Shown piece after piece: positions 1 to 60,439 of a stretch of 64,000 nucleotides of DNA. This DNA comes from Nymphaea colorata (Eukaryota; Streptophyta; Magnoliopsida; Nymphaeales; Nymphaeaceae). The stretch is taken from the NCBI RefSeq assembly GCF_008831285.2, contig NC_045140.1, positions 16,616,370 to 16,680,369 of the forward strand, in the 5' to 3' direction. The notes below the pieces were generated by a model. The model was given only the letters and a program-made list of their open reading frames with translations. It ran no database searches and had not been told where the DNA came from. The position numbers were made by a program, and so were the translations under genes. Every line of letters begins with the position of its first letter. Within the stretch, counting starts at the first letter, position 1.

Positions 1-670
1 TCAACAACATCGCCACCTGCTCGAGCTCTTACTAGCAGCACAAGTCGTCAGATGTCTTCATCGCCACCAATTTCATTCGGATGATCGACTCCCCTTCCTA
101 TCGACATCGATTTTAGGTCATTCCTTCAATCACTGCCATTTGAAACATCACCACCCTCCTCCGGCTTTAAGTGGAACCCAGATTATCACTGTCCCCATTT
201 TCGAAGCCCCCAACCCACCTGCACCTCGATCGTCTCTCTCTTTCTCGTTTTCTGAATCTCCAAAACCTCAACTGGGCAGCCCATCCTCCCCCCATTCCAT
301 TGCCTCCGCTCAGCCTGCGCTCCATCTTTGTTCTTCACACGAGGCCCTTGCTGTAACCGACTTCACACGAAGTATCCGACTTCATCTCCGGAGTCAGGCG
401 ACCACGGTGTGAGGGATTTGCACGACAACGCCGACAAGGCGCAGAAGGAAGAGGGTTTAGGGCTTTGGGAGGGGGAAACGCCGCACGGTCTCTGCAAGAA
501 GGAGAACGACGAGCGAGGAGGTCGGTCGGCGGGCAGGAGGAGGTCGGTCGGCGGCTGGAGGAGGTCGGTCGGCGGGCCGGGCCGGGCCTAATTTTTGGTG
601 GCCACGCCCGGTACCCGGTACCCGGCTCGGCCCGACGGGCCGGATCGGGCCGTCCCGATACCCACCCCTA
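1..670. mobile_element. hAT-type element, right-hand part (left end outside window)
   Basis: This is the same sequence as 35223-35892, the right-hand part of the complete element at 34969-35892. It ends in the terminal sequence CCCGATACCCACCCCTA at 654-670, followed by GTGGGAAA (671-678), the right copy of the target-site duplication. Positions about 519-585 hold three imperfect copies of a ~25-bp GC-rich unit containing GGTCGGTCGGCGG. Short open frames in this stretch have no recognisable transposase features, so the element looks non-autonomous. Confidence 0.8.
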
Positions 671-678
671 GTGGGAAA

Positions 679-2556
679 TCATTTGAAATGAGAAGGGATG
701 AACGATATTCGGTGCAACTATTGTAATTAAAGAACTGTGACACATGAAATTCAATTGCTTAGTGCTAAAGAAAAAAAAAGGAATGTATGTTGCTAGCTCT
801 TGTGGGGATGAAAATGAGATGGAAGACACCTAACATGAGTGCAAGTAAAAGAAATCTCCTCAACTGGAGACAGATAATCAATTTTGTGGTAACATCCTTT
901 AAAGCATTCAAAAATTTCCAAGGCATACGGCTCTTATCAGTTTTACGATTTGATGATTTTTTGGCTTTTCTTTTTACAATTGCAAATGGTTTCAAACTGT
1001 GTTTTAGAAAGTTAGCACTTTCTGTAAATTTTGGTGAATTGGTGAATTGTAAATTCCTAATTACTTGAAAAGTAGCACTCTGATTTACATAATTTACTAT
1101 CTTAGAAGTTTTAAAACTTCATATTAGACCTAGTTTTTCTTTTAAACCATTTTGTCATTTTGCAAAGTTGCAAACATTGTTTCAAACTCATAAAGTTTTG
1201 AAGGATTGGAACATTTTGATGTTGTTTAGACTTTTATAATAAAACACGTTTTTGTAGGCTTTTGTGAAATTCATGTGCTATTTGAAATTTTGCAAAAGTT
1301 AATAAAAGCTTTTCTGGTTTAACAAAATTGCTGCACTTTTTCATATGTTTCTAAAGATTGCGGCTGTTTACGTTTTCTACAAAAAATGTTAGATTTCACG
1401 TATTTACTAATTTAAAAAAAAATCAAACATTTATAAACTGTTTGAAAGTTTTACCAGCTTTGTAATCTTTTAGAAACTTTCTGAAATTTTTTAACTTTTC
1501 AAATATGTGACAACAAATGCTTTCGCTGCTAACGAAACACAATTTTGAAATTTGGTTGCACAAACATTCAAAATTTTCATAACTCTTAGAAGTTCTACAA
1601 CATGATGAAACTTTTGCCTTTTTTTTTGCAATTGATAATGGTTTCGAACTGTTTGGAAATATTACGAATGTTTTATTCCGGTTTCTAAAACTCTGCCCTT
1701 TTTTATAGATTTTGGTGAGGTATATGCTTAGTTTGAAATTTCGCTATTCATAAAATCTTTTCTATTTTTACACAATTCTTGCACTTTGTCACGCGTTTTG
1801 CAAAGACTATTACTCTAAAAAATTATAACTCTTCACGTTTCCTACAAAATGTCAAAATTTTCATACATTAATTAATTCTAAAGTTTATAAATGCTTATAA
1901 ACCTTTCAAAAGTCTTTACACTTTACCAAATTTAACATCTGATTTCAATTCTGAAATGTCCTAAATAGTTTATAAGCATAGTCTGAGTTTTTGGGGAATT
2001 TTTAATTACTTTGAAAGTAATCCATAATTCTAATTACTTTGAATGTGGCACCAGTAATTTACAAAATTGCTGCACTTTTTCACATCTTTTGAAAAAACTG
2101 TATTGTTTTCCAAAGATAATGACTCTTTACCTTTTCTACAAAAATGTTAAATATTTCTCGTACTTACTAATTTGCAATTTTTAGACACTTATAATTTGTT
2201 TTGAAAGTTTTACTAGCTTTGTGATCTTTTTCATTCTTCCCAAAGTTTGTATATTTTCAAATATTTAATCTCAAATATATTTTGCCAGTAAAATATAATT
2301 TCAGAAATTCTTATAAGTTTTGTATAAATTTTCTAAAAATTTGTTAATTACTTGGAAGGAAGCGTTAAAATTTTATGAAATTTACAACTCTTACAAGCTT
2401 TATAAGTTGATAAAGCTTAGCTACTTTTTTTAGAATTGCAAACACATTGAAATTGATTTAAAATTCTGCAAATGTTTTGTTTGGTTATTAAAATTTAGCA
2501 TTGCTTTATATGTTTTGGTGAAGTATGTGCATAATTTGATATTTTGCATGGCCACT
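679..2556. repeat. AT-rich DNA with degenerate internal repeats, no gene
   Basis: The stretch is T/A-rich, with phrases recurring in altered form, for example 'gctgcactttttca' near 1331 and 2070, with related text near 1780. Related sequence occurs at 11380-11990, and a short match to its end lies near 16570-16670. The exact copy is at 35901-37778. I see no coding pattern; the open frames are short and unlike any family I know. Confidence 0.6.
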
Positions 2557-5253
2557 TAGATGCATTGGTATAATGGTCAATTTTAAGAGGTTACTCGTTG
2601 GACAAAAGGGAAGTCAATGAAAAACATGCAATACTAAACTAGTGCGCTCAAAGGATGTGATGTGAATGATATGTGATCGTTTCATTTTAAGCGCAAAAGG
2701 TACGATGAACCCTGTACAACAAAAGGGAAAGCAGTCCTGTGAGACCTGGGAATTGCTCTAGGATTTTGATGAAGCAACATGGGCACCATCAAGTTAAAAA
2801 TGTCAATTAGATGCAATTGAAATAAATGGCTGACTGGTTGACTCAACCAATGCACGACCAACTAGATGCATTGGTATAATGGTCAGTTTTAGGAGGTTAC
2901 TCGTTAGACAAAAGGAAAGTCAATGAAAATCATGCAATACTAGACAAGTGCTCTAAGGGGATGTGATGTGAATGATATGTGATCGTCTCATTTTGAGCGC
3001 AAAAGATACGATAAACCCTCTTACAACAAAAGGAAAAGCAGTCCTTTGAGACGTGAAAACTACTCTAGGATCTTGATGAAGCAACATGCACACCATCAAG
3101 TTAAAAATGTTGGTTAGATGCAATTGAAATAAATGCCTGACTGGTTGACACGACTAATGCATGGCCAACTAGATGCATTGGTATAATGGTCAGTTTTAGG
3201 AGCTTATGCGTATTGCACAAGGAAAGTCAATCAAAAACATGCAATACTTGACAAGTGCAATCAAGGGATCTTATGTAAATGATATGTGATCGTGTCATTT
3301 TGAGCGAAAAAAGATACGATGAACCCCCTTACAAGAAAAGGCAAAGCAGTCCTGTGAGACATGAGGACTGATATGGGATCTTGATGAAGCAACATGTGTA
3401 CCATCATGTTAAAAATGTCAATTAGATCCAATTGAAATAAATGGCTGACTGGTTAAGATGACCAATACATGGCCAACTACATGCATTGGTATAATGGTCA
3501 CTTTTAGGAGGTTACTCGTTAGACATAAGGAAAGCCAATGAAAAACATGCAATACTAGACAAGTGCGCTCGAGGGATGTGATGTGAATGATATGTGATCG
3601 TCTCATTTTGAGCGGAAAACATACGATGAACCCCGTACAACAAAAAGGAAAGCAGTCTTGTGAGACCTGGGAATTGCTCTAGGATCTTGATGAAGCAACA
3701 TGCGCACCATCAAGCTAAAATTGTCAATTAGATGCAATTGAAATAAATGGCTGACTGGTTGACTCGATCAATGTGCGGCCAACTAGATGCATTGGTATAA
3801 TGGTCAGTTTTAGGAAGTTACTCGTTAGACAAAAAGAAACTCAATGAAAAGCTTGCAATACTAGACAAGTGCGCTCAAGGGATGTGTTGTGAATGATATG
3901 TGATCATATCATTTTGAGCGCAAATCATATGATGAACCCGTACAAGAAAAGGGGAATGTGAGACCTGGGAACTGCTCTAGATCTTGATGAAGCAACATGT
4001 GCACGATCAGGTTAAAAATGTGAGTTAGATGCAATTGAAATAAATGCCTGACTGGTTGACACTTCCAATGCATTGCCAACTAGATGCATTGGTATAACGG
4101 TCAGTTTTTTGAAGTTACTCGTTAGACAAAAAGAAAGTCAATGAAAAGCATGCAATACTAGACTAGTGCGCTCAAGGGATGTGATGTAAATGATATGTGA
4201 TTGTTTCTTTTTGAGCAAAAAAGATACGATGAACCCCGTACAACAAAAGGGTGTGAGACCTAGGAATTCCTCTAGGATCTTGATGAAGCAACATGCGCAC
4301 CATCAAGTTAAAAATGTCAGTTAGATGCAATAGAAATAAATTGCTCACTAGTTAGATGCAATAGAAATAAATTGCTCACTGGTTGCACGACCAATGCACG
4401 GTCAACTAGATGCATTGGTATAACGGTCAGTTTTACGAGGCTACTCGTTAGACATAAGAAAAGTCAATGAAAAGCATGCAATACTAGACAAGTGCACTAA
4501 AGGGATGTGATGTGAATGATATGTGATCGTCTCATTTTGAGCGCAAAAGATACGATGAACCCCCTTACAACAAAAGGGAAAACAGTCCTGTGAGACGTGG
4601 AAACTGCTCTAGGATCTTGATGAAGCAACATGCGCACCATGAAGTTAAAAATGTTGGTTAGATGCAATTGAAATAAATGGCTGACTGGTTGACACGACTA
4701 ATGCATGGCCAACTAGATGCATTGGTATAATGGTCAGTTTCAGGAGCTTATGCGTATGGCACAAGGAAAGTCAATGAAAAACATGCAATACATGACAAGT
4801 GCGCTCAAGAGATGTTATGTAAATGATCTGTGATCGTGTCATTTTGAGCGAAAAAGATACGATGAACCCCCTTACAACAAAAGGGAAAGCAGTCGTGTGA
4901 GACATGAGGACTGCTCTAGGATCTTGATGAAGCAACACGTGCACCATCAAGTTAAAAATGTCAGTTAGATGCAATTGAAATAAATGGCTGACTGGTTGAG
5001 ATAACCAATGCATGGCCAACTAGATGCATTGGTATAATGGTCAGTTTTAGGAGGTTACTTGTTAGACAAAAGGAAAGTCAATGAAAACATGCAATACTTG
5101 ACAAGAACCCTCAAGGGATGTTATGTAAATGATATGTGGTCGTGACATTTTGATCGAAAAAAGATACGATGAACCCCCTTACAACAAAAGGGAAAGCAGT
5201 CCTGTGAGACATGAGGACTCATATGGGATCTTGATGAAGCAACATGTGTACCA
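2557..5253. repeat. ~306-bp tandem satellite array, 9 monomers (last truncated)
   Basis: Monomers start at 'tagatgcattggtata' or close variants at 2557, 2863, 3170, 3478, 3784, 4081, 4407, 4714 and 5021, giving spacings of 306, 307, 308, 306, 297, 326, 307 and 307. The 326-bp unit carries a local duplication of about 30 bp near 4320-4385. Shared phrases include 'gatcttgatgaagcaacatg' and 'aaatggctgactggttga'. The recurring minus-strand frames of 60-92 codons are a by-product of the repeat and not genes. The array is cut off at 5253. Confidence 0.95.
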
Positions 5254-5640
5254 GCGATGCACCGGAGCATCCCAGGAGCGGGTCTCCGACAACCATTCAC
5301 CAAACCATGGTAAAAGGTATCTCTCTCTCTCTCTCTCTCTCTGTCCCACAACGCTAGAAGCCCTATTCCTCCACCCTCTGCTTCGAGGCGGAGGGTTTCT
5401 GAAACCAGCGGAAACCCTCTGCCTCGAGGCAGAGGGTTTCCTCTGAAACACTCTCAAACGGAGGTTTCAGAGTTCAGACAAAACCCTCTACCTCATGGCA
5501 AAGGGTTTCCTCTGCATCGAAGGCGGAGGCGTTGAGAGAGTTTCTTTGAAACTTTCTCTTAGGGTGGATGATTTTTCAGAAAAACCCTCCGCCTTGAGGC
5601 GGAGAGTTTCTGCGTCGATGTAGCTTGTCTTGAGAAAGTT
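5254..5640. repeat. dispersed repeat with CT run and palindromic GC-rich motifs
   Basis: This segment begins exactly where the duplicated block ends. It contains a CACCGGAGCATC box, an ATG followed by a splice-donor-like GTAAAAGG, a CT run (about 5322-5342) and a cluster of palindromes built on CCCTCTGCYTCGAGGCRGAGGG (near 5375, 5410, 5482 and 5582, the last two decayed). The same order of parts is seen at about 13155-13295, so this is one repeat family with two members here. No coding function is visible. Confidence 0.7.
5410..5441. repeat. 32-bp perfect palindrome
   Basis: The half-site GGAAACCCTCTGCCTC is followed at once by its reverse complement, with no spacer, so the stretch can form a 16-bp-stem cruciform. 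Imperfect relatives flank it. Confidence 0.9.
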
Positions 5641-6164
5641 TGTATATATTATATAAGTTGAAGTCCGACTGATGAGTGAATTTTCTCAAAATTGGTCGGT
5701 TTCAATATTTTGGAACCCACTTTCCAATAAGGTTTCTTAAATTTCTTTTTTGGTTGCCATCAAAATCTTGATTTTATAAAGTTCTAATTTCATGAGCAGA
5801 GATAATCTCTTGAGCAGTATACCAATCTATGGTCGAGAGCTTTTCTTTTGTTAGGAATCTCTAAGAATTCTACTTTGGCTTCATCACTGTGCCATGTCTA
5901 CATCAAGATGTATCTTTATTTACCTTTGATATTTCCTTGAGGAAGAGGAGAAATTTCATGTTCTTGCTATCAGTTGGCTGAAAGGAATTTTGGAAGACCT
6001 TCGATATGAGCAATGATGAGGAGTTCGATGAAGCTTGGGAAAGGATATTACATTGACTTTGGCAATCACGCATTTGCAAGGCTTCAACAATGAAATACTA
6101 TGAGAAGAAACCCTCATATTCTATAAGATTCTGACAAGATATCAAAAAAACAAAAGCACCTAGA
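5641..6164. repeat. diverged third member of the 15-kb/25-kb repeat family
   Basis: The region around 5930-6140 shares ordered phrases with 15410-15580 and 25550-25730: an attgactttgg-like segment, 'gcatttgcaagg', 'gagaagaaaccctca...ctataagatt' and 'ctgacaag'. It is much more decayed than the other two. No gene is recognisable. Confidence 0.45.
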
Positions 6165-10659: not shown

Positions 10660-10890
10660 AAATCTTTTAGGTGACATTCAAGTTCAGACTTGTGTGTGGA
10701 TCCAACACTTAAGTGCCTCTGTATCCATTTTAAGAATTTTCTTTGCTCCCTTACTGTTGCTAGCTAGCTAGTAATCGCTAGTGATGAAGCCCATCAGTGT
10801 TGTGAAATGTGATGAGGCGAAGCAAAGCGATGAGCTTGTCGAGGTGGAATGAAGCGGAAGCTTGAAGACAAATTCATAAATTTATCACAA
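10660..10890. repeat. dispersed repeat, copy 1 (partner at 20920-21135)
   Basis: It shares an ordered run with the second copy: 'gttcagacttgtgtgtggat', 'aagtgcctctgtatccatt', 'gctagctagtaat', 'gatgaagcccatc', 'gatgaggcgaag' and 'gaggtggaatgaagcg'. Divergence is roughly 10-15 percent by eye, with small indels. No coding sign. Confidence 0.85.
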
Positions 10891-13069: not shown

Positions 13070-13300
13070 TCTCTCTCACCTCTCGATCTTTCGAGGCCTC
13101 TCTCATCTCTCGATTCTGCGAGAGGTACAGCTGTTTAGGGTGGCTCCGGCAAGCAACGGCGCACCGGAGCATCGCCGACGACCACCCACCATGGTAAGGG
13201 GTTTCTATCTATCTCTCTCTCCCTCTCTCTCTTAAGCTACAAACCCTCTGCTTCGAGGCGGAGGGTTTCTGAAACCAGAGGAAACCCTCTCAAGCCTGGT
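13070..13300. repeat. second copy of the CACCGGAGC / palindrome repeat
   Basis: It repeats the order of 5254-5420: cgcaccggagcatcgcc, a CACCC-CCATGGTAAGG box with a donor-like site, a CT run, then ccctctgcttcgaggcggag and tttctgaaaccag. The ATG|GTAAGG arrangement could be the old end of a short first exon, but no reading frame supports a gene. Confidence 0.6.
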
Positions 13301-15045
13301 TTCTCTGGATCTTCATCTTGGCAGCACTAAAAGTTTCAATCCGTTGGGTAAAATGAAAAGACAACCCCTTTGTTTGTCTATTTAGTTTAATAATGCTGTG
13401 TGGGGGTCGTCTGCACATGACTTATGATTTTAATTTAATCGCTTCCTTTAGTTAGAAAATATAGGTTTTTAACATAGTTAGTATGCATGGGATTCACTTG
13501 CATGTTGTTCTAGGCTCACTTGTCTAACTTTTTCTTGAATTTGCACTGGTGGGGAGCGAATACACAGGTAAGTTTTAGACGAACATGTTTTGATTTTTCC
13601 ACTAAGTACTTTACATTTGTTTTTCTTGTTATTTGTGTTATTCTGCCCTGTGTGCTTGAGCGTTGCATGTTCATCTTGGTTGCAAACTTAATAGAGTATA
13701 AATATTTTATGTTTTGATTTTCTTTCTTGTGAAAAAAAAAAGTTTTTGTGAACATGTTCTATTTTTGTATAGAAACTATGCTAAATTGAAAAACCCGAAA
13801 TAAATACCCAAATTGTTCAAAAAAATTTGAATTTTGGTTTTCTGATATCCTCTTTTTCTGTAGAGGTATAAAGCACTTAGTTTTGGTATCAACTCTTTAC
13901 AATATAATGTTTTTTATTAACCTGGGTACGTGAACCTATCAGAACTGGAAAAGTCTGCCCCTGTTTTAGGTGGAACATTTTTTTACTTTCGTTTTATGAA
14001 TTAAAGTCTGAATGTGGGTCTGATTTTTGGTATGATATTTCTCTACTATCTCTGATGTCATCCCACAAAATTTAGGACTTTTTGAGCTTTTAGTGGTTTT
14101 GACAGATTTCTATACTGTTCCTCGTTTCTGTTTCTTGGGAACTATAATTCTGAAAACCAGAATTTTCTGCTCCGTTCTCAGATTATTAATGCTCTGTAGA
14201 AAAGATATTATCAATTGTACCTTTTTTTAGTGTTTTTTCGATCTTTCTAGTTCCTATTTCTGATTTTTCTTTAACTTTTAGGCCTTTGTATATCTATCAA
14301 ATAGAGTAAAATTCTGAACCTGTTTACAGGTTAAAGAATTTCCACTTAGGGAGATGAAGGCTCCTTAGGACATGTATGGTGTTTTTGTTTTGATGTCTGC
14401 GTATTGTTTTTGTGTATTAATGCTAAGAGGATTATCTCTTATCAAGTTTTGTTTGTGCTATCTAGAGGTGTGGCCTCTGGTTTAGTATGCCCTTTAGCTG
14501 TATTTTAGATATGAAAACCACAATTTGAGTCGTATATTTAGGACCTTTGTAAGTATATGCACGAGTGAAGAAATCCTTGCGAGCCTCTTGTTGCATTTGA
14601 TCTTAGACCTCAGCTTGTGATTAAAATCATCTTAATCCATTAAAGCCAATCCAACTTAGTCCTGGAAATGGTCTTTTAGCTATGTAGGAAAATGAGCTAT
14701 GGAAGTAGCAATTTTCCTTTATTAATAAATGATCCATCATCCAACCCTCTTCAAAGAATACCTTACAATAAGAGAATTTGTGGAAGTTTGCTTGCCACAA
14801 GGCTATATTTTTATGAGAAAGTTCAAGATGAACTTGTCCCCTGTGTTGTTATCCTTTTGCAAAATCAGAATTTCACAAAGTTCTCATGTGATCGGGACAC
14901 AGTACTAGTTAAATTTTGGTGGACAGTCTTACATTCAGAGTCTAACAAAGTCCAATCCCATAGTTGTCGTTAACATTTACCATTTGATTTTACAAAAGCC
15001 AACACATAGGACTGTTTGTCTTGGGCTTTGTTCGGGAAAAGAAAA
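13301..15045. other. no gene seen; AT-rich DNA
   Basis: The stretch is T-rich, with prose-like 'ttctgaaaaccag' phrases recurring near 14150 and 8540. The 93-codon plus frame at 14692-14973 has fairly ordinary amino-acid composition, but I recognise no domain and see no splice context. Confidence 0.45.
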
Positions 15046-15047
15046 GT

Positions 15048-16582
15048 GCTTAACCCAAACCTTTTGCAAAACTTTCAATTAGTTGCTGACCCAACACTTA
15101 TGAGAACTCGTCACCCTTAAACCAATCGTGCATTTAAAATATCCTATTTCTATGACGGAGTTGGTGAAGTTCATTCTTCTACCCAGCCAAACCATCTTGT
15201 TTTGCATTCACACATCTCTTTAGGTTTTATTGTTTTTGCCTCCTAATGACATACCATTTGATGTCAAGGACTTTTGGATAAAATTTTTAATTTTTTGTTT
15301 ACAAACATTTTAAAAATGTTTTCTCACTCAATGATATGTCTTTTCTTTACTTTTGGTATCTCACCATGTAGCGGGAGAAAATTTCAATTTTTTTTTTGGC
15401 AATCAATGGAAGAGGGAAGCTGAAAAAATCTTAGATATGAACAGTGAAGAAAAATCCTATGAAGCTAAGAAAGTCAAGACTAGGAAATGTATTGACTTTG
15501 GTTTTCAAGCATTTGCAAGGATTTAGCATGAAAATATCCTGAGAGAGAAGCCACAATGCTCTATAAGATCTTGACAGGTAAAAAAATGAGAGTTGAGGGA
15601 TGGGCTCGGGGCTTGTGTAGTCGTTCCTCTAAGTCAGTAATCGAGAGTACCGGGTAGGCATAAAGTTGATTTATGTCTATTTCGCGAAGATAAATGACTT
15701 ATGAACCTTTGGATCGTCGAAAACTCGTAAGGTGAAGCGGGTTGGACACGTGACAAAGCTATGCATAACCACCAAAGCGGTGGAGCTTCGTAGTAGCTTT
15801 TGAGGTGGTGAGGTGTTCCCTCAAAGGTGAAGGTCGGCCTGAAAAGAAAAAAAAATCAAATGAAAAAAAAGGCAAAAAGCCGAATGCCAAAGAAAGAAAA
15901 AAGGAAAAAAGGAAAAAAAAAGCAAAAAATGCTTGCCAAGAGATGAAAGACACGAAGGCTAAACTCTCAGGAATTGAATGCGACTATCTTTCGCGGCTGT
16001 TTGGTTCTGGGGTCAATACCAGCTCCTTTTTTTGATTATCTAGGATGTCGAGGATGATTCCTTTATGTTGATATTTTGGAAATTGAAAGACATCCTCTTT
16101 TATGATTTGACAACATTGATGCGAAATGAAGCATGATGCTTGTATGGTACTATGGGTAAATTAAGGTCATATTATTTGTAAAACACGAGCACACAAACGT
16201 ATGAGTTAAGTTGATCGTTTTTGAACTATTTCAATGTAAAAACTTGACATCCCTTGTTATGTTTTTAGGCTTTTTAAGCATAGGAGGAACTAACCAATCC
16301 CCCTTTGGTCTTGAAAGATGTTTGCCCATTTCATTACCAAAATACTAGTCCATTCATAGAATAGATGAAACCCTTCAAACATAGTATGCTCATATTGAGT
16401 GTGAATTCCATCGTTTCCTCTGTCTCAGAATAGGACGAACCATTTGGGATAGAAGATTAAACCTGGCGCGTTATCTCATCGAGTATCTTCAACATCCATA
16501 ACCCCGACTTGGGGTATTTCTTTCGAAAAGCACCAGTTGATTCTGAATGGTGGCATTTTAAAAAAATTCTGTTGAAATTGCA
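15048..16582. repeat. dispersed ~1.5-kb repeat, copy 1 (partner at 25204-26663)
   Basis: Both copies run from 'taacccaaacc' through 'cacccttaaaccaatc', 'atggaagagg', 'agtgaagaaaaatcctatga', 'gtcgttcctct', 'aatcgagagtaccgggta', 'tcgcgaagataa', 'gtggagcttcgtagtag' and 'gattatctaggatgtcgagga' to 'gaaattgcat'. This copy has about 60 extra bases near 16470-16550. A lysine-rich 76-codon frame (15805-16035) is kept open in both copies. The layout suggests the noncoding part of a retroelement, but no diagnostic protein is present. Confidence 0.85.
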
Positions 16583-20915: not shown

Positions 20916-20919
20916 CTCT

Positions 20920-21135
20920 TTTATGTGATATTGAAGTTCAGACTTGTGTGTGGATCCAACAGTTAAGTGCCTCTGTATCCATTGTAAGAATTTTTTTGCT
21001 TTCTTATTATTGCTTGCTAGCTAGTAATCTGGTGATGAAGCCCATCGATGTTGTTAAATGGGATGAGGCGAAGGGAAGCGTTGAGCTTGTCAAGTGAGGT
21101 GGAATGAAGCGTAAGCTTGACACAAATTCATAAAG
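20920..21135. repeat. dispersed repeat, copy 2 (partner at 10660-10890)
   Basis: See the first copy. The order of conserved phrases is identical, ending at 'gaagcttgacacaaattcat'-type sequence. Confidence 0.85.
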
Positions 21136-25203: not shown

Positions 25204-26663
25204 ACCTAACCCAAACCATTTGTGAAACTTTCAATCAGTTGAATACCCAACTTTTCTGGGAACTCCTCACCCTTAAACCAATCTTTTGTATAGAAGACCC
25301 TACTTTTATGGGAGATTTGGTGAAGTTCGTTCTTTTAACCAGCCAAGTTTTACATTCACCCATCTCTTTAGGGAGTACAGTTCCTTTCTCCTGGTGATAT
25401 ACCATTTGATGTCAAGAACTTTTGTAAAAGAGAAACTTTTCAGTTTTGCTTAAAAACATTTTGAAAGTGTTTTCTCACACAATGATGTGCCTTGCTTTAT
25501 TCTTAGTACCTTTCCAAGTGGAAGGTGGAAATTTCAAATTTTTGTTGTCCATCAATGGAAGAGGAAAATCGAACAAATCCGGATATGAGCAGTGAAGAAA
25601 AATCCTATGAAGTTGAGAAAGTCAAGACTAGGAAATGCTATTGACTCTAGCGATTAAGCATTTGCAAGGATTTAGCAGGAAAATATATTGAGGGAGAAGC
25701 CAAAATGCTCTATAAGATCTTGGCAGGTAGTAAAATGAGAGTTGAGAGATGGGCTCGGAGCTTGTGTAGTCGTTCCTCTGAGTTAGTAATCGAGAGTACC
25801 GGGTAGACATAAAGGTGATTTATGTCTATTTCGCGAAGATAATGATTTACGAACTTTTGGTTCGTTGAAAACCCGTAAGGTGAAGCGGGTTGGACACGTG
25901 ACAAAACTACACATAACTACCAAAGTGGTGGAGCTTCGTAGTAGCCTTTGGGGTGGTGAGGTATTCCCTCAAAGGTGAAGGTCAGCCCAAAAAAAAAAAA
26001 AAAAAGAAAAGCATAAGAAAAAAAATTGAAAGGCAAAAAGTTGAATGCAAAAGAAAAAAAATGAAGAAAAAAGCAAAAGGTGCTTGCCAAGAGATGAAAG
26101 ACATGAAGGCTGAACTCGCAAGAATTGAATGCGACAATCTTTCGTGGATGTACGATTTTGGGGTTAATATCTGCTCCTTGTTTTGATTATCTAGGATGTC
26201 GAGGATGGTTCCTTTTTGTTCATATTCTGGAAATTGAAGGACATTCCTTTTAAAGATTCGACAACATTGATGCGAAATAAAACCAAATGCTTGTATGGTA
26301 CTAACGGTACATGAAAGCTATATTATTTTCACAACACGAGCACTCAAGTTTATGAGTTGAATTGATTATTTTTGAACTATTTCAAAATTCAATGTAAAAA
26401 CTTGACGTATCTTGTATGCTTCCAGGATTCCTAGGCATAGCAATAACTAACCAATCCCCTTTAGTCTTGAAAATGTTTGACCATTTTGTTACCAAATTGT
26501 TAGTCCTTCTGTGAAATAGATGAAACCCCTCAAACCTAGTTCAACCATGCTGAGCATGATGAATTATCCATCATTTCCTTTTGTCTTTGGAGAGGTAGAC
26601 CATTTGGGACAAGTGATTAAGCTGACTCTAGATGATATTTTTGAAAAGTTCTATCGAAGTTGC
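25204..26663. repeat. dispersed ~1.5-kb repeat, copy 2 (partner at 15048-16582)
   Basis: Collinear with the first copy throughout. It keeps a lysine-rich 77-codon plus frame (25953-26186) aligned with the one at 15805-16035, including SLKGEG near the start, ACQEMKD in the middle and GVN near the end. Confidence 0.85.
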
Positions 26664-27035: not shown

Positions 27036-27177
27036 ATTTTATATGAGGTAAATGGTTCCAGCTTGGTGTATTTAGACAATGCAGCTACATCTCAAAAGCC
27101 ATATGCTGTTTTGGAAGTTCTTCATGATTATGTGAGGGCTACAGCTCAAATGGTCACCACAATATTCATTATTTAAG
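27036..27177 (+). pseudogene. NFS2: NFS2/SufS-type cysteine desulfurase exon relic
   Basis: NFS2 is the plastid pyridoxal-phosphate enzyme that takes sulfur from cysteine for iron-sulfur cluster assembly. The plus frame contains [13 protein letters not shown], a signature close to the N-terminus of SufS-type desulfurases, preceded by EVNGSS. After DY the frame breaks: one base is missing around 27132, and the downstream frame (from 27134) continues as [12 protein letters not shown], where the family has an NVHRGIH-type motif. The V and the R-G of that motif are changed. A good GT donor (AAG|GTATCC) follows at 27178. No transit-peptide exon and no downstream exons with the lysine or catalytic cysteine motifs were found within several kb. 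I read it as a decayed single-exon fragment. Confidence 0.75.
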
Positions 27178-27375: not shown

Positions 27376-27540
27376 AAAAAAATAAGGGTAGTTCATTGGG
27401 TGCATGGTAAATCATTTGATTTAATCTTTTTTCAATAGTTTTATTATTTGGCGTATTAAAAAAATAAGGGTAGTTCATTGGGTGCATGGTAAATCATTTG
27501 ATTTAATCTTTTTTCAATAGTTTTATTATTTGGCGTATTG
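27376..27540. repeat. 82-bp perfect tandem duplication
   Basis: The segment from 'aataagggtagttcattggg' to 'ttatttggcgtatt' occurs twice head to tail with a period of 82 bp and no difference that I can see. A duplication this clean implies a recent event. Confidence 0.93.
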
Positions 27541-31345: not shown

Positions 31346-31960
31346 TCATCGCATTATGCAGCTGTTCAAATTCCAACCAGCCATTCGGGGAGGTTGGGCG
31401 TTTTTCTCAGGTATTGCAATTGGGTCTCTTCTGATAATGATTTGTTTACTGGGTTCACGTTTCCTTCTTCAATGACAATGCTTTTTCATGGATGGGGAAG
31501 GTGGGCACTCAAGCTGTCGGGCGTTCTCCAACATGCCTGATACTTATGATTTACTGGTTCATTTTTGTTTGGTTTGTTGGTGGTCTCACTGCATTATATT
31601 TGTATGTTACTAGTGCCAACCAGGTCACTGTTTTCTTTTAATCCTAAAGTGATAAGTTTTATCTGCTGCATGTAGTTTCCTTTCTATACGATTATATGCT
31701 GTATTTCTGTTTGTTGTTTGAATCCATCCTTGTATTGTTTTCTCGTTTAGAATATCAGATGCATTTGACTTCAACTTACAATCACAGAGTAATATAATGC
31801 TTCCTTTGTGACTCCGGACATAGATGTAGGTGTCATTGTCTGCTGGACATGTATATTTCATGTTTAATAAGTCTTGTATAAAGCATACATTTGGGTGGAG
31901 AAGTTATGCAGAAAATTAGTAAAACTTGTTTCAACATTGTAGATTGGGTTAGATTTGACC
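31346..31960. other. no gene seen
   Basis: T-rich sequence with no recognised coding or RNA feature. Confidence 0.5.
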
Positions 31961-34525
31961 TCTGTTCTAGATCATAAATCCAAATCTGAAATCCAACATC
32001 GCAGACCGGATCAGATTAGACAACTGATCCAAATCTTAGGACGAAATCCCAAATCCAATTTTGTGAACGGAATCAGATTAGAGCTCTCGTCTATTTCTTC
32101 GATCCAAACACAGTGAAGATACACAATAAAATGAGAGGTTTTCTAATTTATTGTAAATTCTTTTCAAAACCCTTATCAATCTTTGAAATCATTTCAAGAA
32201 TGTTACTATGTCTATATAAATCTTTGAAACAATTTTCTAAGTTTTCCAAAATTTTGTAAATTGACTTCAAATTCCTATGATTTGATTTTTTTTGAATTTT
32301 CTCAATTTCTTGTGAGATTTGATTTCGTATTTTTCGTAAATCTTTGTTGAATTTTCAAGTTTTTAAATGCACCTGTCAACATTCGAGTTTCTAAATTCCA
32401 TTGGATTGTATGAATTTTTAAAACTATTTTAAACATGGTCTTGATATTTTAAAATTCACATCCACAATCAAAATATGCATTTGACATCCTAGAGGACACT
32501 AAATAAGAGAGACCACCATTGTAGATGCTTGTCCATGTTCTCCAAAATTGTGCAATTTGACTTCAAATTCTTTTGATTTTCTTTGAATCTTCTCAGATTT
32601 GTATTCGATTTGCTACATTTCCTAAAAATGCATGTTAATTTCTCAAATGTATGAATTTTGAAAACAATTTTTAACATGGTCTAAACTAGAGGTTCAAATT
32701 TTAATATTAAAATTCAAAGTCCACATTCAATTTACCAATCCAATTTCTGAGACTGATTAGTCCTCTAATCTAGAGCTTTCATGTAAAGCCCACATACAAC
32801 ATCCTAGACCATGTCTGATCCAAACCAATTCAACACCCATACCTCTGATCCAAACCTTAGGTCTAAATCCCTAATTCAACACCCATACCAGATCAGGAAT
32901 GACCTCTGATCTATTTTATAGATCCTAATCCTAAATCACACATCACAGAACAAATTCAAATCCCTTATGCATTTTGAAATCATTTCCAGTATTTTACTTC
33001 ATCTATATACATTTTTGATACCACTCTCTGAGTTTTCCAAATTTTTGTAAATTGACTTCACATTCTTATGATTGATTTTCTTTGAATTTTCTCAATTTCT
33101 AGTGTCTTCAAATATTTTTTGATTTGATTTCATACTTTTCTTAAATCTTTGTCAAATTCTCAAGGTTGTAAATGTAAACTTTCAAGTTTCTAAAGTCCAT
33201 TGGATTTTATAAATTTTCAAAATGATTTTAAACATGGTCTAGACTTCTGTATATTTTAAAAATCACATCTGCATTCAAAAACATGTATGCATTCGGCATC
33301 CTAGACCGGGTAAAATGACACCTCAGTTCTACTTGCTTGTTCAAAATCCGCAATCCAACATCCTAGACCCGATTAGATGAGACCTTTGATCGCGTAGGGG
33401 ACTAGATCAGACCTATGATCTATTTCTTAGATCAAAATCCCTAATCCAACATCATATACTTGATCACATAAAAAAATGAGTGATTTTCTGATTTGTTGCA
33501 AATTCTTTTCAAATCCTTTAGGAAGTTTTGAAATCATTTGAAGAATATTAGTTTGTCTATATAAGTCTTTGAAATCATTGTCAAGTCTTCCAAAATTGTG
33601 CAAGTTGGCTTCAAATTCTTTTCATTTTCGTAGAATCTTCTCAATTTCTCGTTGTATCTTTAAATTTCTTGTATTTGATGTGTGACATTTCCTAAATGCT
33701 TGTTAAATTCTCAAGTTTTTAATTGCACTTTTTACTCTCGAGTTTTTCAAATTACACTTGATTGTTCAAATTTGTAAAACAATTTTAAACATGGTCTGAA
33801 CTCTCTGGTTCAGATTTTAAAAGTCGAAATCCAATTTCGAATTACCAATCCAAGAGACCGTATAAGATTGGACCTCTACTCTAGAGCTTTGGTTTGATTC
33901 CTGCATACAACATCCTAGACCAGATCAGAGCTGACCTTTGATCCAAAACATAGTTATGAATCCCTTTTTCAACACCCCATACCGGATCAGGTCAGACCTC
34001 TGATCTATTTCTTGCATCCAAATCCTAAATCAAACATCATTGAACAGATTCAAATCCCTTTTGAGTATTTGGAATCATTTCCCGTGTTTTACTTTGTCTA
34101 TATACATCTTTGAAACCACTCTCTAAGTTTTCCAAAATTTTGTAACTTGAATTCAAATTCTTATGATTCATTTTCTGTGAATTTTCTCAATTTCTTTTGA
34201 GTTCTTCAGATTTTTTGGATTTGATTTCGTACTTTTCTAAAATCTGTGCTAAATTCTCAAACTTGTTAATGCACCTTTATACTTTCAAGTTTCTAAATAC
34301 CATTGGATTGTATAATTTTTCAAAATGATTTTAAACATGGTCTAGACTTGGGTTTAATGTTTTAAAATTCACATCCATTTTCAAAAAAATATTCATTCGA
34401 CGTCCTAGACTGGATAAAACGAGACCTCCGTTCTTACTGCTAGTTCAAAACCCGCAATCCAACATCCTAGACCGGATTAGATGAGACCTCTGATCTGGAC
34501 CTTAGAGACGAGACCTCCGTTGTAG
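31960..34525. repeat. diverged long-period tandem array (~540-560 bp units)
   Basis: Two marker blocks alternate. One is 'atccaacatcctagaccgga' with 'gagacctctgatc' text (near 31990, 32870, 33350, 33970 and 34455). The other is 'gtctatata.atctttgaaa...gttttccaaaattttgtaa...gacttcaaattc' (near 32210, 33000, 33550 and 34095, with a partial one at 32530). Spacing between the last three is about 550 and 545 bp; the first interval is longer because of a partial unit. Units differ considerably, so the array is old. Confidence 0.75.
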
Positions 34526-34960: not shown

Positions 34961-34968
34961 GTGGGAAA
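34961..34968. repeat. left target-site duplication of hAT-type element
   Basis: GTGGGAAA immediately before the element, identical to 35893-35900. It fits the nTnnnnAn pattern known for hAT insertions. Confidence 0.85.
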
Positions 34969-35892
34969 TAAGGCTGGGCGTCGGGTCGAGAAAATCCCGA
35001 CCCGGGCCGGATAGGCCGGCCCAGCGGCGGCCCGGTCGGCCCGTCTCCCTCTCCCTTTCCTACTTCCCCCCTTCCCGTCTCTCCTTCCCCCTTCCCGTCT
35101 CCCTCCCCTTTTCCGGCAACCCGCACAGCTACCCAGCTCCAACATGCTTCACCCTCTGGTTTGGCCATCCGCGGATCATCAAAGCTCGTCAATGCCACCT
35201 ACTTGTTGATCTCTGTTCTACTTCAACAACATCGCCACCTGCTCGAGCTCTTACTAGCAGCACAAGTCGTCAGATGTCTTCATCGCCACCAATTTCATTC
35301 GGATGATCGACTCCCCTTCCTATCGACATCGATTTTAGGTCATTCCTTCAATCACTGCCATTTGAAACATCACCACCCTCCTCCGGCTTTAAGTGGAACC
35401 CAGATTATCACTGTCCCCATTTTCGAAGCCCCCAACCCACCTGCACCTCGATCGTCTCTCTCTTTCTCGTTTTCTGAATCTCCAAAACCTCAACTGGGCA
35501 GCCCATCCTCCCCCCATTCCATTGCCTCCGCTCAGCCTGCGCTCCATCTTTGTTCTTCACACGAGGCCCTTGCTGTAACCGACTTCACACGAAGTATCCG
35601 ACTTCATCTCCGGAGTCAGGCGACCACGGTGTGAGGGATTTGCACGACAACGCCGACAAGGCGCAGAAGGAAGAGGGTTTAGGGCTTTGGGAGGGGGAAA
35701 CGCCGCACGGTCTCTGCAAGAAGGAGAACGACGAGCGAGGAGGTCGGTCGGCGGGCAGGAGGAGGTCGGTCGGCGGCTGGAGGAGGTCGGTCGGCGGGCC
35801 GGGCCGGGCCTAATTTTTGGTGGCCACGCCCGGTACCCGGTACCCGGCTCGGCCCGACGGGCCGGATCGGGCCGTCCCGATACCCACCCCTA
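34969..35892. mobile_element. complete non-autonomous hAT-type transposon (924 bp)
   Basis: The left end is TAAGGCTGGGCGTCGGGTCG. The right end, read on the opposite strand, is TAGGGGTGGGTATCGGGACG; 15 of 20 positions match. Both ends are flanked by the 8-bp repeat GTGGGAAA. The subterminal regions are rich in GGCCC/CGGGCC words and short tandem GC repeats, typical of plant hAT elements. The longest frame (35161-35634, 157 codons) shows no dimerisation or DDE-type transposase motif, so movement would need a helper. The middle could be a captured gene piece, but I recognise none. The element was inserted before the 5.25-kb duplication, because its right end and flank are identical in both copies. 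Confidence 0.8.
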
Positions 35893-35900
35893 GTGGGAAA
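35893..35900. repeat. right target-site duplication of hAT-type element
   Basis: GTGGGAAA directly after the CCCACCCCTA terminus; it matches 34961-34968 and 671-678. Confidence 0.85.
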
Positions 35901-37778
35901 TCATTTGAAATGAGAAGGGATGAACGATATTCGGTGCAACTATTGTAATTAAAGAACTGTGACACATGAAATTCAATTGCTTAGTGCTAAAGAAAAAAAA
36001 AGGAATGTATGTTGCTAGCTCTTGTGGGGATGAAAATGAGATGGAAGACACCTAACATGAGTGCAAGTAAAAGAAATCTCCTCAACTGGAGACAGATAAT
36101 CAATTTTGTGGTAACATCCTTTAAAGCATTCAAAAATTTCCAAGGCATACGGCTCTTATCAGTTTTACGATTTGATGATTTTTTGGCTTTTCTTTTTACA
36201 ATTGCAAATGGTTTCAAACTGTGTTTTAGAAAGTTAGCACTTTCTGTAAATTTTGGTGAATTGGTGAATTGTAAATTCCTAATTACTTGAAAAGTAGCAC
36301 TCTGATTTACATAATTTACTATCTTAGAAGTTTTAAAACTTCATATTAGACCTAGTTTTTCTTTTAAACCATTTTGTCATTTTGCAAAGTTGCAAACATT
36401 GTTTCAAACTCATAAAGTTTTGAAGGATTGGAACATTTTGATGTTGTTTAGACTTTTATAATAAAACACGTTTTTGTAGGCTTTTGTGAAATTCATGTGC
36501 TATTTGAAATTTTGCAAAAGTTAATAAAAGCTTTTCTGGTTTAACAAAATTGCTGCACTTTTTCATATGTTTCTAAAGATTGCGGCTGTTTACGTTTTCT
36601 ACAAAAAATGTTAGATTTCACGTATTTACTAATTTAAAAAAAAATCAAACATTTATAAACTGTTTGAAAGTTTTACCAGCTTTGTAATCTTTTAGAAACT
36701 TTCTGAAATTTTTTAACTTTTCAAATATGTGACAACAAATGCTTTCGCTGCTAACGAAACACAATTTTGAAATTTGGTTGCACAAACATTCAAAATTTTC
36801 ATAACTCTTAGAAGTTCTACAACATGATGAAACTTTTGCCTTTTTTTTTGCAATTGATAATGGTTTCGAACTGTTTGGAAATATTACGAATGTTTTATTC
36901 CGGTTTCTAAAACTCTGCCCTTTTTTATAGATTTTGGTGAGGTATATGCTTAGTTTGAAATTTCGCTATTCATAAAATCTTTTCTATTTTTACACAATTC
37001 TTGCACTTTGTCACGCGTTTTGCAAAGACTATTACTCTAAAAAATTATAACTCTTCACGTTTCCTACAAAATGTCAAAATTTTCATACATTAATTAATTC
37101 TAAAGTTTATAAATGCTTATAAACCTTTCAAAAGTCTTTACACTTTACCAAATTTAACATCTGATTTCAATTCTGAAATGTCCTAAATAGTTTATAAGCA
37201 TAGTCTGAGTTTTTGGGGAATTTTTAATTACTTTGAAAGTAATCCATAATTCTAATTACTTTGAATGTGGCACCAGTAATTTACAAAATTGCTGCACTTT
37301 TTCACATCTTTTGAAAAAACTGTATTGTTTTCCAAAGATAATGACTCTTTACCTTTTCTACAAAAATGTTAAATATTTCTCGTACTTACTAATTTGCAAT
37401 TTTTAGACACTTATAATTTGTTTTGAAAGTTTTACTAGCTTTGTGATCTTTTTCATTCTTCCCAAAGTTTGTATATTTTCAAATATTTAATCTCAAATAT
37501 ATTTTGCCAGTAAAATATAATTTCAGAAATTCTTATAAGTTTTGTATAAATTTTCTAAAAATTTGTTAATTACTTGGAAGGAAGCGTTAAAATTTTATGA
37601 AATTTACAACTCTTACAAGCTTTATAAGTTGATAAAGCTTAGCTACTTTTTTTAGAATTGCAAACACATTGAAATTGATTTAAAATTCTGCAAATGTTTT
37701 GTTTGGTTATTAAAATTTAGCATTGCTTTATATGTTTTGGTGAAGTATGTGCATAATTTGATATTTTGCATGGCCACT
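35901..37778. repeat. AT-rich repeat DNA, second copy of 679-2556
   Basis: Identical to 679-2556; no gene. Confidence 0.6.
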
Positions 37779-40700
37779 TAGATGCATTGGTATAATGGTC
37801 AATTTTAAGAGGTTACTCGTTGGACAAAAGGGAAGTCAATGAAAAACATGCAATACTAAACTAGTGCGCTCAAAGGATGTGATGTGAATGATATGTGATC
37901 GTTTCATTTTAAGCGCAAAAGGTACGATGAACCCTGTACAACAAAAGGGAAAGCAGTCCTGTGAGACCTGGGAATTGCTCTAGGATTTTGATGAAGCAAC
38001 ATGGGCACCATCAAGTTAAAAATGTCAATTAGATGCAATTGAAATAAATGGCTGACTGGTTGACTCAACCAATGCACGACCAACTAGATGCATTGGTATA
38101 ATGGTCAGTTTTAGGAGGTTACTCGTTAGACAAAAGGAAAGTCAATGAAAATCATGCAATACTAGACAAGTGCTCTAAGGGGATGTGATGTGAATGATAT
38201 GTGATCGTCTCATTTTGAGCGCAAAAGATACGATAAACCCTCTTACAACAAAAGGAAAAGCAGTCCTTTGAGACGTGAAAACTACTCTAGGATCTTGATG
38301 AAGCAACATGCACACCATCAAGTTAAAAATGTTGGTTAGATGCAATTGAAATAAATGCCTGACTGGTTGACACGACTAATGCATGGCCAACTAGATGCAT
38401 TGGTATAATGGTCAGTTTTAGGAGCTTATGCGTATTGCACAAGGAAAGTCAATCAAAAACATGCAATACTTGACAAGTGCAATCAAGGGATCTTATGTAA
38501 ATGATATGTGATCGTGTCATTTTGAGCGAAAAAAGATACGATGAACCCCCTTACAAGAAAAGGCAAAGCAGTCCTGTGAGACATGAGGACTGATATGGGA
38601 TCTTGATGAAGCAACATGTGTACCATCATGTTAAAAATGTCAATTAGATCCAATTGAAATAAATGGCTGACTGGTTAAGATGACCAATGCATGGCCAACT
38701 ACATGCATTGGTATAATGGTCACTTTTAGGAGGTTACTCGTTAGACATAAGGAAAGCCAATGAAAAACATGCAATACTAGACAAGTGCGCTCGAGGGATG
38801 TGATGTGAATGATATGTGATCGTCTCATTTTGAGCGGAAAACATACGATGAACCCCGTACAACAAAAAGGAAAGCAGTCTTGTGAGACCTGGGAATTGCT
38901 CTAGGATCTTGATGAAGCAACATGCGCACCATCAAGCTAAAATTGTCAATTAGATGCAATTGAAATAAATGGCTGACTGGTTGACTCGATCAATGTGCGG
39001 CCAACTAGATGCATTGGTATAATGGTCAGTTTTAGGAAGTTACTCGTTAGACAAAAAGAAACTCAATGAAAAGCTTGCAATACTAGACAAGTGCGCTCAA
39101 GGGATGTGTTGTGAATGATATGTGATCATATCATTTTGAGCGCAAATCATATGATGAACCCGTACAAGAAAAGGGGAATGTGAGACCTGGGAACTGCTCT
39201 AGATCTTGATGAAGCAACATGTGCACGATCAGGTTAAAAATGTGAGTTAGATGCAATTGAAATAAATGCCTGACTGGTTGACACTTCCAATGCATTGCCA
39301 ACTAGATGCATTGGTATAACGGTCAGTTTTTTGAAGTTACTCGTTAGACAAAAAGAAAGTCAATGAAAAGCATGCAATACTAGACTAGTGCGCTCAAGGG
39401 ATGTGATGTAAATGATATGTGATTGTTTCTTTTTGAGCAAAAAAGATACGATGAACCCCGTACAACAAAAGGGTGTGAGACCTAGGAATTCCTCTAGGAT
39501 CTTGATGAAGCAACATGCGCACCATCAAGTTAAAAATGTCAGTTAGATGCAATAGAAATAAATTGCTCACTAGTTAGATGCAATAGAAATAAATTGCTCA
39601 CTGGTTGCACGACCAATGCACGGTCAACTAGATGCATTGGTATAACGGTCAGTTTTACGAGGCTACTCGTTAGACATAAGAAAAGTCAATGAAAAGCATG
39701 CAATACTAGACAAGTGCACTAAAGGGATGTGATGTGAATGATATGTGATCGTCTCATTTTGAGCGCAAAAGATACGATGAACCCCCTTACAACAAAAGGG
39801 AAAACAGTCCTGTGAGACGTGGAAACTGCTCTAGGATCTTGATGAAGCAACATGCGCACCATGAAGTTAAAAATGTTGGTTAGATGCAATTGAAATAAAT
39901 GGCTGACTGGTTGACACGACTAATGCATGGCCAACTAGATGCATTGGTATAATGGTCAGTTTCAGGAGCTTATGCGTATGGCACAAGGAAAGTCAATGAA
40001 AAACATGCAATACATACAAGTGCGCTCAAGAGATGTTATGTAAATGATCTGTGATCGTGTCATTTTGAGCGAAAAAGATACGATGAACCCCCTTACAACA
40101 AAAGGGAAAGCAGTCGTGTGAGACATGAGGACTGCTCTAGGATCTTGATGAAGCAACACGTGCACCATCAAGTTAAAAATGTCAGTTAGATGCAATTGAA
40201 ATAAATGGCTGACTGGTTGAGATAACCAATGCATGGCCAACTAGATGCATTGGTATAATGGTCAGTTTTAGGAGGTTACTTGTTAGACAAAAGGAAAGTC
40301 AATGAAAACATGCAATACTTGACAAGAACCCTCAAGGGATGTTATGTAAATGATATGTGGTCGTGACATTTTGATCGAAAAAAGATACGATGAACCCCCT
40401 TACAACAAAAGGGAAAGCAGTCCTGTGAGACATGAGGACTCATATGGGATCTTGATGAAGCAACATGTGTACCATCATGTTAAAAATGTCAGTTAGATGC
40501 AATTGAAATAATGGCTGACTGGTTAAGACGACCAATGCATGGCCAACTAGATGCGTTGATATAATGGTCAGTTTTACGATGTTACTCGTTAGACTAAAAG
40601 TCAATGAAAACATGCAATACTAGACAAGTGCACTAAAGGGATGTGATGTGATCGTCTCTTTTTGAGCGCAAAAGATACGAAAAGCAATCCTGTGAGACGT

Positions 40701-43700
40701 GGAAACTGCTCTAGGATCTTGATGAAGCAACATGCGCACCATCAAGTTAAAAATGTTGGTTAGATGCAACTGAAATAAATGGCTGACTGGTTGACACGAC
40801 TAATGCATGGCCAACTAGATGCATTGGTATAATGGTCAGTTTCAGGAGCTTATGCGTATGGCACAAGGAAAGTCAATGAAAAACATGCAATACATGACAA
40901 GTGCGCTCAAGGGATGTTATGTAAATGATCTGTGATCGTGTTATTTGAGCGAAAGATACGATGACCCTTACAACAAAGGGACTTAGACATGAACAACGTG
41001 CACCATCAAGTTAAAAATGTCAGTTAGATGCAATTGAAATAAATGGCTGACTGGTTGAGATAACCAATGCATGGCCAACTAGATGCATTGGTATAATGGT
41101 CAGTTTTAGGAGGTTACTTGTTAGACAAAAGGAAAGTCAATGAAAACATGCAATACTTGACAAGAACCCTCAAGGGATGTTATGTAAATGATATGTGGTC
41201 GTGACATTTTGATCGAAAAAAGATACGATGAACCCCCTTACAACAAAAGGGAAAGCAGTCCTGTGAGACATGAGGACTGATATGGGATCTTGATGAAGCA
41301 ACATGTGTACCATCATGTTAAAAATGTCAGTTAGATGCAATTGAAATAATGGCTGACTGGTTAAGACGATCAATGCATGGCCAACTGGATGCATTGATAT
41401 AATGGTCAGTTTTACGAGGTTACTCGTTAGACATAAGGAAAGTCAATGAAAAGCATGCAATACTAGACAAGTGCACTAAAGGGATGTGATGTGAATGATA
41501 TGTGATCGTCTCATTTTGAGCGCAAAAGATACGATAAACCCCTTACAACAAAGGGAAAAGCAGTCCTGTGAGACGTGGAAACTGCTCTAGGATCTTGATG
41601 AAGCAACATGCTCACCATCAAGTTAAAAATGTTGGTTAAATGCAGTTGAAATAAATGGCTGACTGGTTGACACGACTAATGCATGCCAACTAGATGCATT
41701 GGTATAATGGTCAGTTTCAGGAGCTTATGCGTATGACACAAGGAAAGTCAACGAAAAGCATGCAATACATGACAAGTGCGCTCAGGGGATGTTATGTAAA
41801 TGATATGTGATCGTGTTATTTTGAGTGAAAAAGATACGATGAACCCCCTTCCAACAAAAGGGAAAGCATTCCTGTTAGACATGAGGACTGCTCTAGGATC
41901 TTGATGAAGCAACATGCGTACCATCAATTAAAAATGTCAATTAGATGCAATTGAAATAAGTGGCTGACTGGTTGACACGACCAATGCATGTCCGACTAGA
42001 TGCATTGGTATAATGGTTAGTTTTAGGAGGTTACTCGTTAGACAAAAGGAAGTCAATGAAAAACATGCAAGTGCGCTCAAGGGATATTATGTAAATGATA
42101 TGTGATCGTGTTATTTTGAGTGAAAAAGATACGATGAACCCCCTTCCAACAAAAGGGAAAGCATTCTTGTGAGACATGAGGACTGCTTTAGGATCTTGAT
42201 GAAGCAACATGCGTACCATCAAATTAAAAATGTCAATTAGATACAATTGAAATAAGTGGCTGACTGGTTGACACGACCAATGCATGGCCGACTAGATGCA
42301 TTGGTATAATGGTCAGTTTTATGAGGTTACTCGTTAGACAAAAGGAAGTCATTGAAAAACATGCAATATTATACAATTGCGCTCAAGGGATGTGATGTGA
42401 ATGATATGTGATCGTTTCATTTTGAGCACAAAAGATACAATGAGCCCCATACAACAAAAGGGAAAGCAGTCCTGTGAGACCTGGGAACTGCTCTAGGATC
42501 TTGATGAAGCAACTTGGGCACCATCAAGTTAAAAATGTCAATTAGATGCAATTGAAATACATGGCTGACTGGTTGACACGGCCAATGCACGGCCAACTAG
42601 ATGCATTGGTATAATTGTCAGTTTTACGAGGTTACTCGTTAGACATAAAGAAACTCAATGAAAACATGCAATACTAGACAAGTGCATTAAAGGGATGTGA
42701 TGTGAATGAAATGTGATCGTCTCATTTGAGCGCAAAAGATACGATGAACCTTACAACAAAAGGAAAGCAGTCCTGTGAGACGTGGAAACTGCTCTAGGAT
42801 CTTGATGAAGCAACATGCGCACCCTCAAATTAAAAATGTTGGTTAGATGCAATTGAAATAAATGGCTGACTGGTTGACACGACTAATGCATGGCCAACTA
42901 GATGCATTGGTATAATGGTCAGTTTCAGGAGCTTATGCGTATGGCACAAGGAAGTCAATGAATACATGACAAGTGCGCTCAAGGGATGTTATGTAAATGA
43001 TCTGTGATCGTGTCATTTTGAGCGAAAAAGATACGATGAACCCCCTTACAACAAAAGGGAAAGCAGTCGTGTGAGACATGAGGACTGCTCTAGGATCTTG
43101 ATGAAGCAACAAGTGCACCATCAAGTTAAAAATGTCAGTTAGATGCAATTGAAATAAATGGCTGACTGGTTGAGATAACCAATGCATGGCCAACTAGATG
43201 CATTGGTATAATGGTCAGTTTTAGGAGGTTACTTGTTAGACAAAAGGAAAGTCAATGAAAACATGCAATACTTGACAAGAACCCTCAAGGGATGTTATGT
43301 AAATGATATGTGGTCGTGTCATTTTGATCGAAAAAAGATACGATGAACCCCCTTACAACAAAAGGGAAAGCAGTCCTGTGAGACATGAGGACTGATATGG
43401 GATCTTGATGAAGCAACATGTGTACCATCATGTTAAAAATGTCAGTTAGATGCAATTGAAATAATGGCTGACTGGTTAAGACGATCAATGCATGGCCAAC
43501 TGGATGCATTGATATAATGGTCAGTTTTACGAGGTTACTCGTTAGACATAAGGAAAGTCAATGAAAAGCATGCAATACTAGACAAGTGCACTAAAGGGAT
43601 GTGATGTGAATGATATGTGATCGTCTCATTTTGAGCGCAAAAGATACGATAAACCCCCTTACAACAAAGGGAAAAGCAGTCCTGTGAGACGTGGAAACTG

Positions 43701-44838: not shown

Positions 44839-44975
44839 TTGCGGACGTGAACCATAGGATGCGCCTTGAAGTCTAGCGGGAGATCTAACTTGTACGCCAG
44901 CTTTCCCATCCTCTTGACCACATTAAATGGCCCTTCATACTTTCTGACCCGTGCTCGTTGTCGCCCACGGAAGAC
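44838..44975 (-). mobile_element. Ty3/gypsy integrase C-terminal fragment
   Basis: On the minus strand the frame contains KYEGPFNVVKRMGKLAYKL followed by a HPMVHVRNLL segment. This is the conserved tail of gypsy-type integrases, after the catalytic core and before the end of pol. Only this tail is present; no catalytic D,D-35-E residues, RNase H or reverse transcriptase are seen nearby. It joins copia gag sequence at about 44975 and satellite DNA at 44838. Confidence 0.8.
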
Positions 44976-51005: not shown

Positions 51006-51022
51006 ACCCTCAAATATATCCA

Positions 51023-58862: not shown

Positions 58863-59066
58863 GTAAGACTTGTCCATTGGGAAGAATACTTTTTGTGTAT
58901 ATTATACTGATACCACTTTGTTTTGCCGCAGACAGGAAACAGAATTTAGTTATGGAAGAAGACTTCATAAGAGGTTGTGCTATAAACGCCTTCAAAAAAA
59001 AATTCCTTGAATTTCAAACAAAAGAAATAAAAAGAGAAGTACAAATAAATTTCAATCCATAAGTAC

Positions 59067-60439
<1,373 letters not shown>

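Follow-up and report, generated by a model that had tools for sequence, protein, structure and literature searches.

The repeated block and its left edge

The window, the whole 64,000-nucleotide stretch of Nymphaea colorata contig NC_045140.1 that was analysed, contains two near-identical blocks, each of which includes sequence of a hAT-like transposable element and part of a tandem satellite array. A sequence-only reading of the window had proposed that positions 1-5253 recur at 35223-40474 with one substitution and one 1-bp indel between them, and alignment of the window against itself by BLAST bore this out, as the two blocks, here called copy A and copy B, aligned over 5,253 columns at 99.962% identity with 1 mismatch and 1 gap. 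The copies lie in direct orientation, both on the plus strand, and the match between them is beyond chance. The blocks and the transposable element that they share are as follows.

1-5253, plus strand: copy A, which in the tandem reading developed below is the tail of a first tandem copy; its left side is cut by the window edge
1-670, plus strand: what copy A holds of this hAT-like element, its right part; the element ends at 661-670, next to the target duplication, and is truncated on the left at the edge of the window
34969-35892, plus strand: hAT-like element of 924 bp, with imperfect terminal inverted repeats and 8-bp target duplications; it spans 35223
35223-40474, plus strand: copy B, continuous in sequence at both coordinates (the hAT-like element at 35223, paralogous monomers at 40474)

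The substitution is an A at 3467 in copy A and a G at 38689 in copy B, and the indel is an extra G at 4794 in copy A that is missing at 40016 in copy B. Both differences fall in the satellite, because the non-satellite part of the block, 2,544 bases, is 100% identical between the copies. Identity ends at 5253/5254 in copy A and at 40474/40475 in copy B. The accompanying claim that all other repeats in the window are far more diverged held for repeats of at least 1 kb, where the next-best long repeat reached 91.7% (61 self-BLAST rows of at least 1 kb, 359 rows in total), and failed below 1 kb, where pairs matching at 816/818 and 82/82 positions were found. The block had no megablast match to plasmid sequences, and an Rfam search returned 0 families at gathering thresholds.

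The left edge of the block was also proposed as a junction, at 35222/35223, and we reject it as a breakpoint. The 8-bp sequence GTGGGAAA flanks the hAT-like element on both sides, at 34961-34968 and 35893-35900, and the target duplication of this length and the imperfect inverted ends are of the hAT type, to which we presume on these features that the element belongs. Because 35223 lies within an intact element whose two ends are present and whose target duplications agree, position 35222/35223 is most simply ordinary sequence inside one insertion. Position 1 is the edge of the window and not the edge of the repeat, which therefore spans 5,253 bp or more and has its left end beyond the window.

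The satellite array and the join at 5253/5254

Both copies run from the hAT-like element into an array of satellite monomers of about 306-307 bp, and the right end of copy A is where that array is broken. The features concerned are as follows.

2545-5253, plus strand: array in copy A, with about 8.8 satellite monomers, each about 307 bp
5253-5254, no strand: apparently misplaced join, at which a satellite monomer stops at its 240th base and first-exon-like sequence follows
5259-5445, plus strand: first-exon-like sequence and start of a putative intron, homologous to about 13153-13307
37767-44756, plus strand: array in copy B, with about 23 satellite monomers and a degraded remainder to about 44838 (BLAST row 42805-44838)
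40998-41814, plus strand: recent block copy within the array; partner 43113-43930, 816/818 columns with 1 mismatch and 1 gap

Monomer by monomer, all 8 of the 8 full monomers of copy A had the collinear monomer of copy B as their best match, at 99.67-100%, with second-best matches of 79.4-95.8%. The ninth, cut after 240 bases, matched the copy B monomer B8 at 240/240, and the monomers that begin at 41073 and 43188 agreed with it over 239/240 and 238/240 bases, respectively; a value of 78% for this monomer was an artefact of globally aligning 240 bp to 306 bp, and the 240-base comparison is used here. The best matches are collinear, and therefore the block was copied rather than homogenised. 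These matches also bear on unequal crossing over between satellite arrays, a form of non-allelic homologous recombination (NAHR) that the sequence-only reading had raised. The array is active, as seen in the 816/818 match between 40998-41814 and 43113-43930, and monomers B8, B11 and B18 are nearly identical, both of which would favour such an exchange. An exchange of this kind should nonetheless leave a hybrid array, unless a nearly identical monomer stood at the end of the other array, and what is found is that copy A follows copy B to its last base and then leaves the satellite for non-satellite sequence. We regard NAHR as very improbable.

Copy B most likely represents the continuous arrangement at 40474/40475, a point in the middle of a monomer. 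Monomers B8, B11 and B18 all read through the equivalent of this position, with the 90 bases at 40442-40531 identical in all three, and two longer repeats (40016-40594 versus 42969-43547, and 40158-40594 versus 40996-41432) cross 40474 unbroken. Because other monomers and longer repeats read through 40474, it is most likely copy B that is continuous and 5253/5254 that is out of place, the only join in the window that looks so. The reverse arrangement, in which copy B is the derived copy and was joined into an existing array at 40474, is disfavoured by the two unbroken repeats. Separately, the blocks at 40998-41814 and 43113-43930, spaced 2,115-2,116 bp, are the product of a second recent event in the array, which has been turning over recently by itself. 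An exact 30-mer of the satellite had no match in the genome-contig or viral-contig collections searched, and a 22-mer occurred in none of the paper texts searched.

Sequence to the right of the join resembles a first exon. A 40-mer spanning 5253/5254 occurred once in the window (plus strand counted), and the alignment of 5259-5445 with 13153-13307 includes ACCATGGTAA, which looks, to judge from its sequence, like a first exon ending at an ATG before a splice donor. The copy at 13 kb has additional upstream sequence, and at 5254 the satellite occupies that place, which is what a break inside a gene would leave. A match of 117 bp links 5304-5420 with the 13.1-kb region (E 1.8e-21). Taken alone, 5254-5303 matched that region over 13/13 bases with a score of 26, which 3 of 1000 single-base shuffles reached, and this short similarity counts because it is collinear with the 117-bp match. 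Position 5259 pairs with 13161 in the short match and with 13153 in the longer alignment, and the register near the join is uncertain.

Homology across the join was assessed on its visible sides, as the ancestral left neighbour of 5254 lies outside the window. Comparison of 5254-6000 with 40475-41200 gave no BLAST row even at E 10. Over the larger intervals 5254-35222 and 40475-64000 BLAST gave 184 rows; two letters dominated 157 of these, and among the remaining 27 the best E value was 0.004. We favour a non-homologous join at 5253/5254. The same observations speak to a misjoin driven by the satellite during assembly, which had been offered as an alternative and explains the join poorly: a plain overlap join needs satellite before 5254 in the right-hand piece and cannot join unlike sequences, and the right side here is non-satellite.

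A proposed tandem duplication and the alternatives to it

One odd join, the direct orientation of the copies and the continuity of copy B together point to a unit whose duplication would account for the window.

5254-40474, plus strand: putative second copy of the tandem unit, 35,221 bp, deduced from the single odd join; most of the first copy would be outside the window, on its left

We consider a recent direct tandem duplication of 5254-40474 to be the best explanation, with a probability of roughly one half. Ancestrally, the unit would have been present once, in the order first-exon-like sequence, hAT-like element, AT-rich tract and satellite array. A non-homologous join, for which we infer either end joining or replication template switching as the repair mechanism, would then have linked the mid-monomer point after 40474 to 5254. 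The window would start within the first copy and show only its last 5,253 bp, and identity should extend left of the window across the rest of the unit. Consistent with this order, removal of 5254-40474 in thought places 40475 after 5253 and yields a whole monomer. The very recent duplication suggested by the sequence-only reading is in this respect retained as the best reading, with its junction at 5253/5254 and without one at 35222/35223, and its retention of an assembly error as an alternative was justified.

Several points weigh against the tandem duplication. Only 5,253 bp of what would be the first copy are in the window, and another novel join may lie further left. Divergence as low as that observed also fits an assembly duplicate. 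Moreover, the two repeats of B8 that cross 40474 diverge more to the right of that position (116/120 each) than to the left (455/459 and 316/317).

The first of these points leaves room for a duplication that is real and not a simple tandem, either a segmental copy of limited length dispersed to a position beside 5254 or a 35-kb extrachromosomal circle integrated by homologous recombination. The left end of copy A is out of view, so the copied block could be shorter than the unit, and a circle integrating into its own homology would presumably leave the same direct repeats. One novel join is in view in the window, which cuts copy A on its left; a dispersed copy requires a second, for which nothing in the window speaks, and a circle adds a step to the event. 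A single tandem unit suffices for two directly oriented copies on one sequence, and we think both of these routes unlikely.

An assembly artefact is the more substantial competitor. Here, the same locus, as two alleles or as an under-collapsed stretch, would have been assembled twice in series, and 5253/5254 would be a chimeric read or a faulty gap filling. Allelic variation or consensus error can produce differences as few as these, one substitution and one indel per 5.25 kb, and a satellite sits at the break. Falsely duplicated copies within a single scaffold have been documented, and wrong gap filling joined some of them (PMC9516828). According to that report, false duplication is marked by read depth that is halved or very low, by gaps that separate the copies, by linked reads that are discordant and by one-copy k-mers, and a true duplication confined to one allele, a situation that half depth would also fit, is described there as well; gaps are found between false copies most often and not always, faulty gap filling being named as well (PMC9516828). 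The present pair resembles such cases in being near-identical on one scaffold and is unlike the typical case in having no assembly gap (PMC9516828), as there is no N in the 64,000 bases of the window and hence no assembly gap between the copies. The number of substitutions is also too few for a clearly outbred pair of alleles, since the probability of at most 1 substitution in 5,252 sites is 0.26 at a heterozygosity of 0.05%, 0.033 at 0.1% and 0.0003 at 0.2%; an inbred or low-diversity genome would leave the allelic reading possible.

The nature of the two differences bears on the artefact as well. They were polarised in an alignment of 32 monomers, 23 from copy B and 9 from copy A. At 3467 the base is A, and G is present in the 31 other aligned rows; when the base was viewed in the other monomer that holds it, G was present in 30 rows, and one row was cut off. 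At the second difference, G is present in 27 of the 32 rows, A in two, T in one, and a gap in monomers B7 and B14, the gap in B14 being part of a longer one. The closest relatives of the monomer at 40016 keep the G, and on the evidence of these monomers the missing base is derived in copy B. Polarised in this way, each copy carries one private derived change, which counts against an artefact, as does the position of the indel outside a homopolymer. Taken together, we consider an assembly artefact possible and less probable than tandem duplication.

If the duplication is real, its age can be estimated. At a mutation rate of 7e-9 per site and generation, 1 substitution in 5,252 sites corresponds to about 13,600 generations, with a Poisson range of about 340-76,000.

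The kind of event is most likely ordinary, a recent tandem segmental duplication of known kind. Among copy number variations in rice, non-homologous recombination was the assigned origin of 4,872 (52.98%), mobile element insertion that of 4,072 (44.28%) and NAHR that of 44 (0.48%) (PMC4812662). Three tandem duplications of BOR1 in Arabidopsis thaliana have joins with 3-bp or 6-bp microhomology or with 26 bp of novel sequence (PMC13037888). The present pair is like the BOR1 duplications in its probable direct tandem copies and in the apparent class of join, short-homology or non-homologous, and unlike them, as they are linked to a gene and a trait, in that the far break lies within a satellite monomer (PMC13037888). 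Recent local duplications among satellite repeats are also found in the subtelomeres of common bean that are rich in the khipu satellite; there the satellite, accompanied by clusters of resistance genes, is 528 bp, whereas here it is 306 bp (PMC6102362).

Other features of the window and meaning of the proposed duplication

The inferred unit contains further repeats and one recognisable coding fragment. Older repeats about 10.2 kb apart pair 15051-16460 with 25207-26620 and 10663-10880 with 20917-21134, at 80% and 87%, respectively. Positions 27376-27457 and 27458-27539 form the perfect 82-bp tandem pair (82/82). Just left of the hAT-like element, 31940-34511 holds degenerate repeats, with rows longer than 300 bp at 65-78% and spacings of, for example, 553, 792, 1115 and 1345 bp, and a tandem repeat search of this interval reported only 33624-33673. 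An open frame at 27036-27173 (plus strand) matched part of chloroplast cysteine desulfurase 2 (4q75, E 1.2e-7), as well as TIGR01979 sufS (E 2.2e-8) and Pfam Aminotran_5 (E 0.00021), both below the curated whole-protein cut-offs. Fuzzy matching of 16 short motifs in the three plus-strand frames of 5254-35222 found no further cysteine desulfurase exons.

Protein-family searches covered 10 chosen frames, one of them shorter than 50 aa, in a window that has 400 open frames of at least 50 aa. Pfam found nothing in 7 of the 10, among them a helicase frame that PDB sequences match, and NCBIfam found nothing in 8 of the 10, a ninth frame giving a match that was marginal (E 0.04). The helicase frame, at 59055-59513 (minus strand), is a DEAH-box RNA helicase-like exon whose best match was DHX8 (E 3.4e-24). 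A candidate second exon of this helicase-like gene, recognised by eye only and with no Pfam match, lies at 60206-60439 (minus strand). Directly after the satellite, 44829-45547 (minus strand) has two fragments side by side, one Tf2-1-like SH3 (E 5.6e-11) and one copia-type gag (E 2.1e-6). Resemblances to copia gag, to hAT elements and to a chloroplast-type cysteine desulfurase suggest plant DNA. The frames at 50822-51283 and 51398-51619 (plus strand), in which Pfam found nothing, recall NO POLLEN GERMINATION RELATED proteins.

A broader interpretation would make the locus a hot spot of repeat-driven duplication at several scales. It would bring together the old paralogy (about 70-87%) inside the unit, the copying of sub-kb satellite blocks (99.8%) and a 35-kb tandem copy, very young, that has its break in the same satellite and includes a cysteine-desulfurase-like exon. 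We regard this interpretation as doubtful.

Were the pair an artefact, it would serve as a worked example of telling a window edge and an intact transposon from a true junction. If the duplication is true, the window contains a fresh tandem duplication resolved to the base, with an apparently non-homologous breakpoint inside a satellite monomer, and would provide one data point on the origin of segmental duplications.
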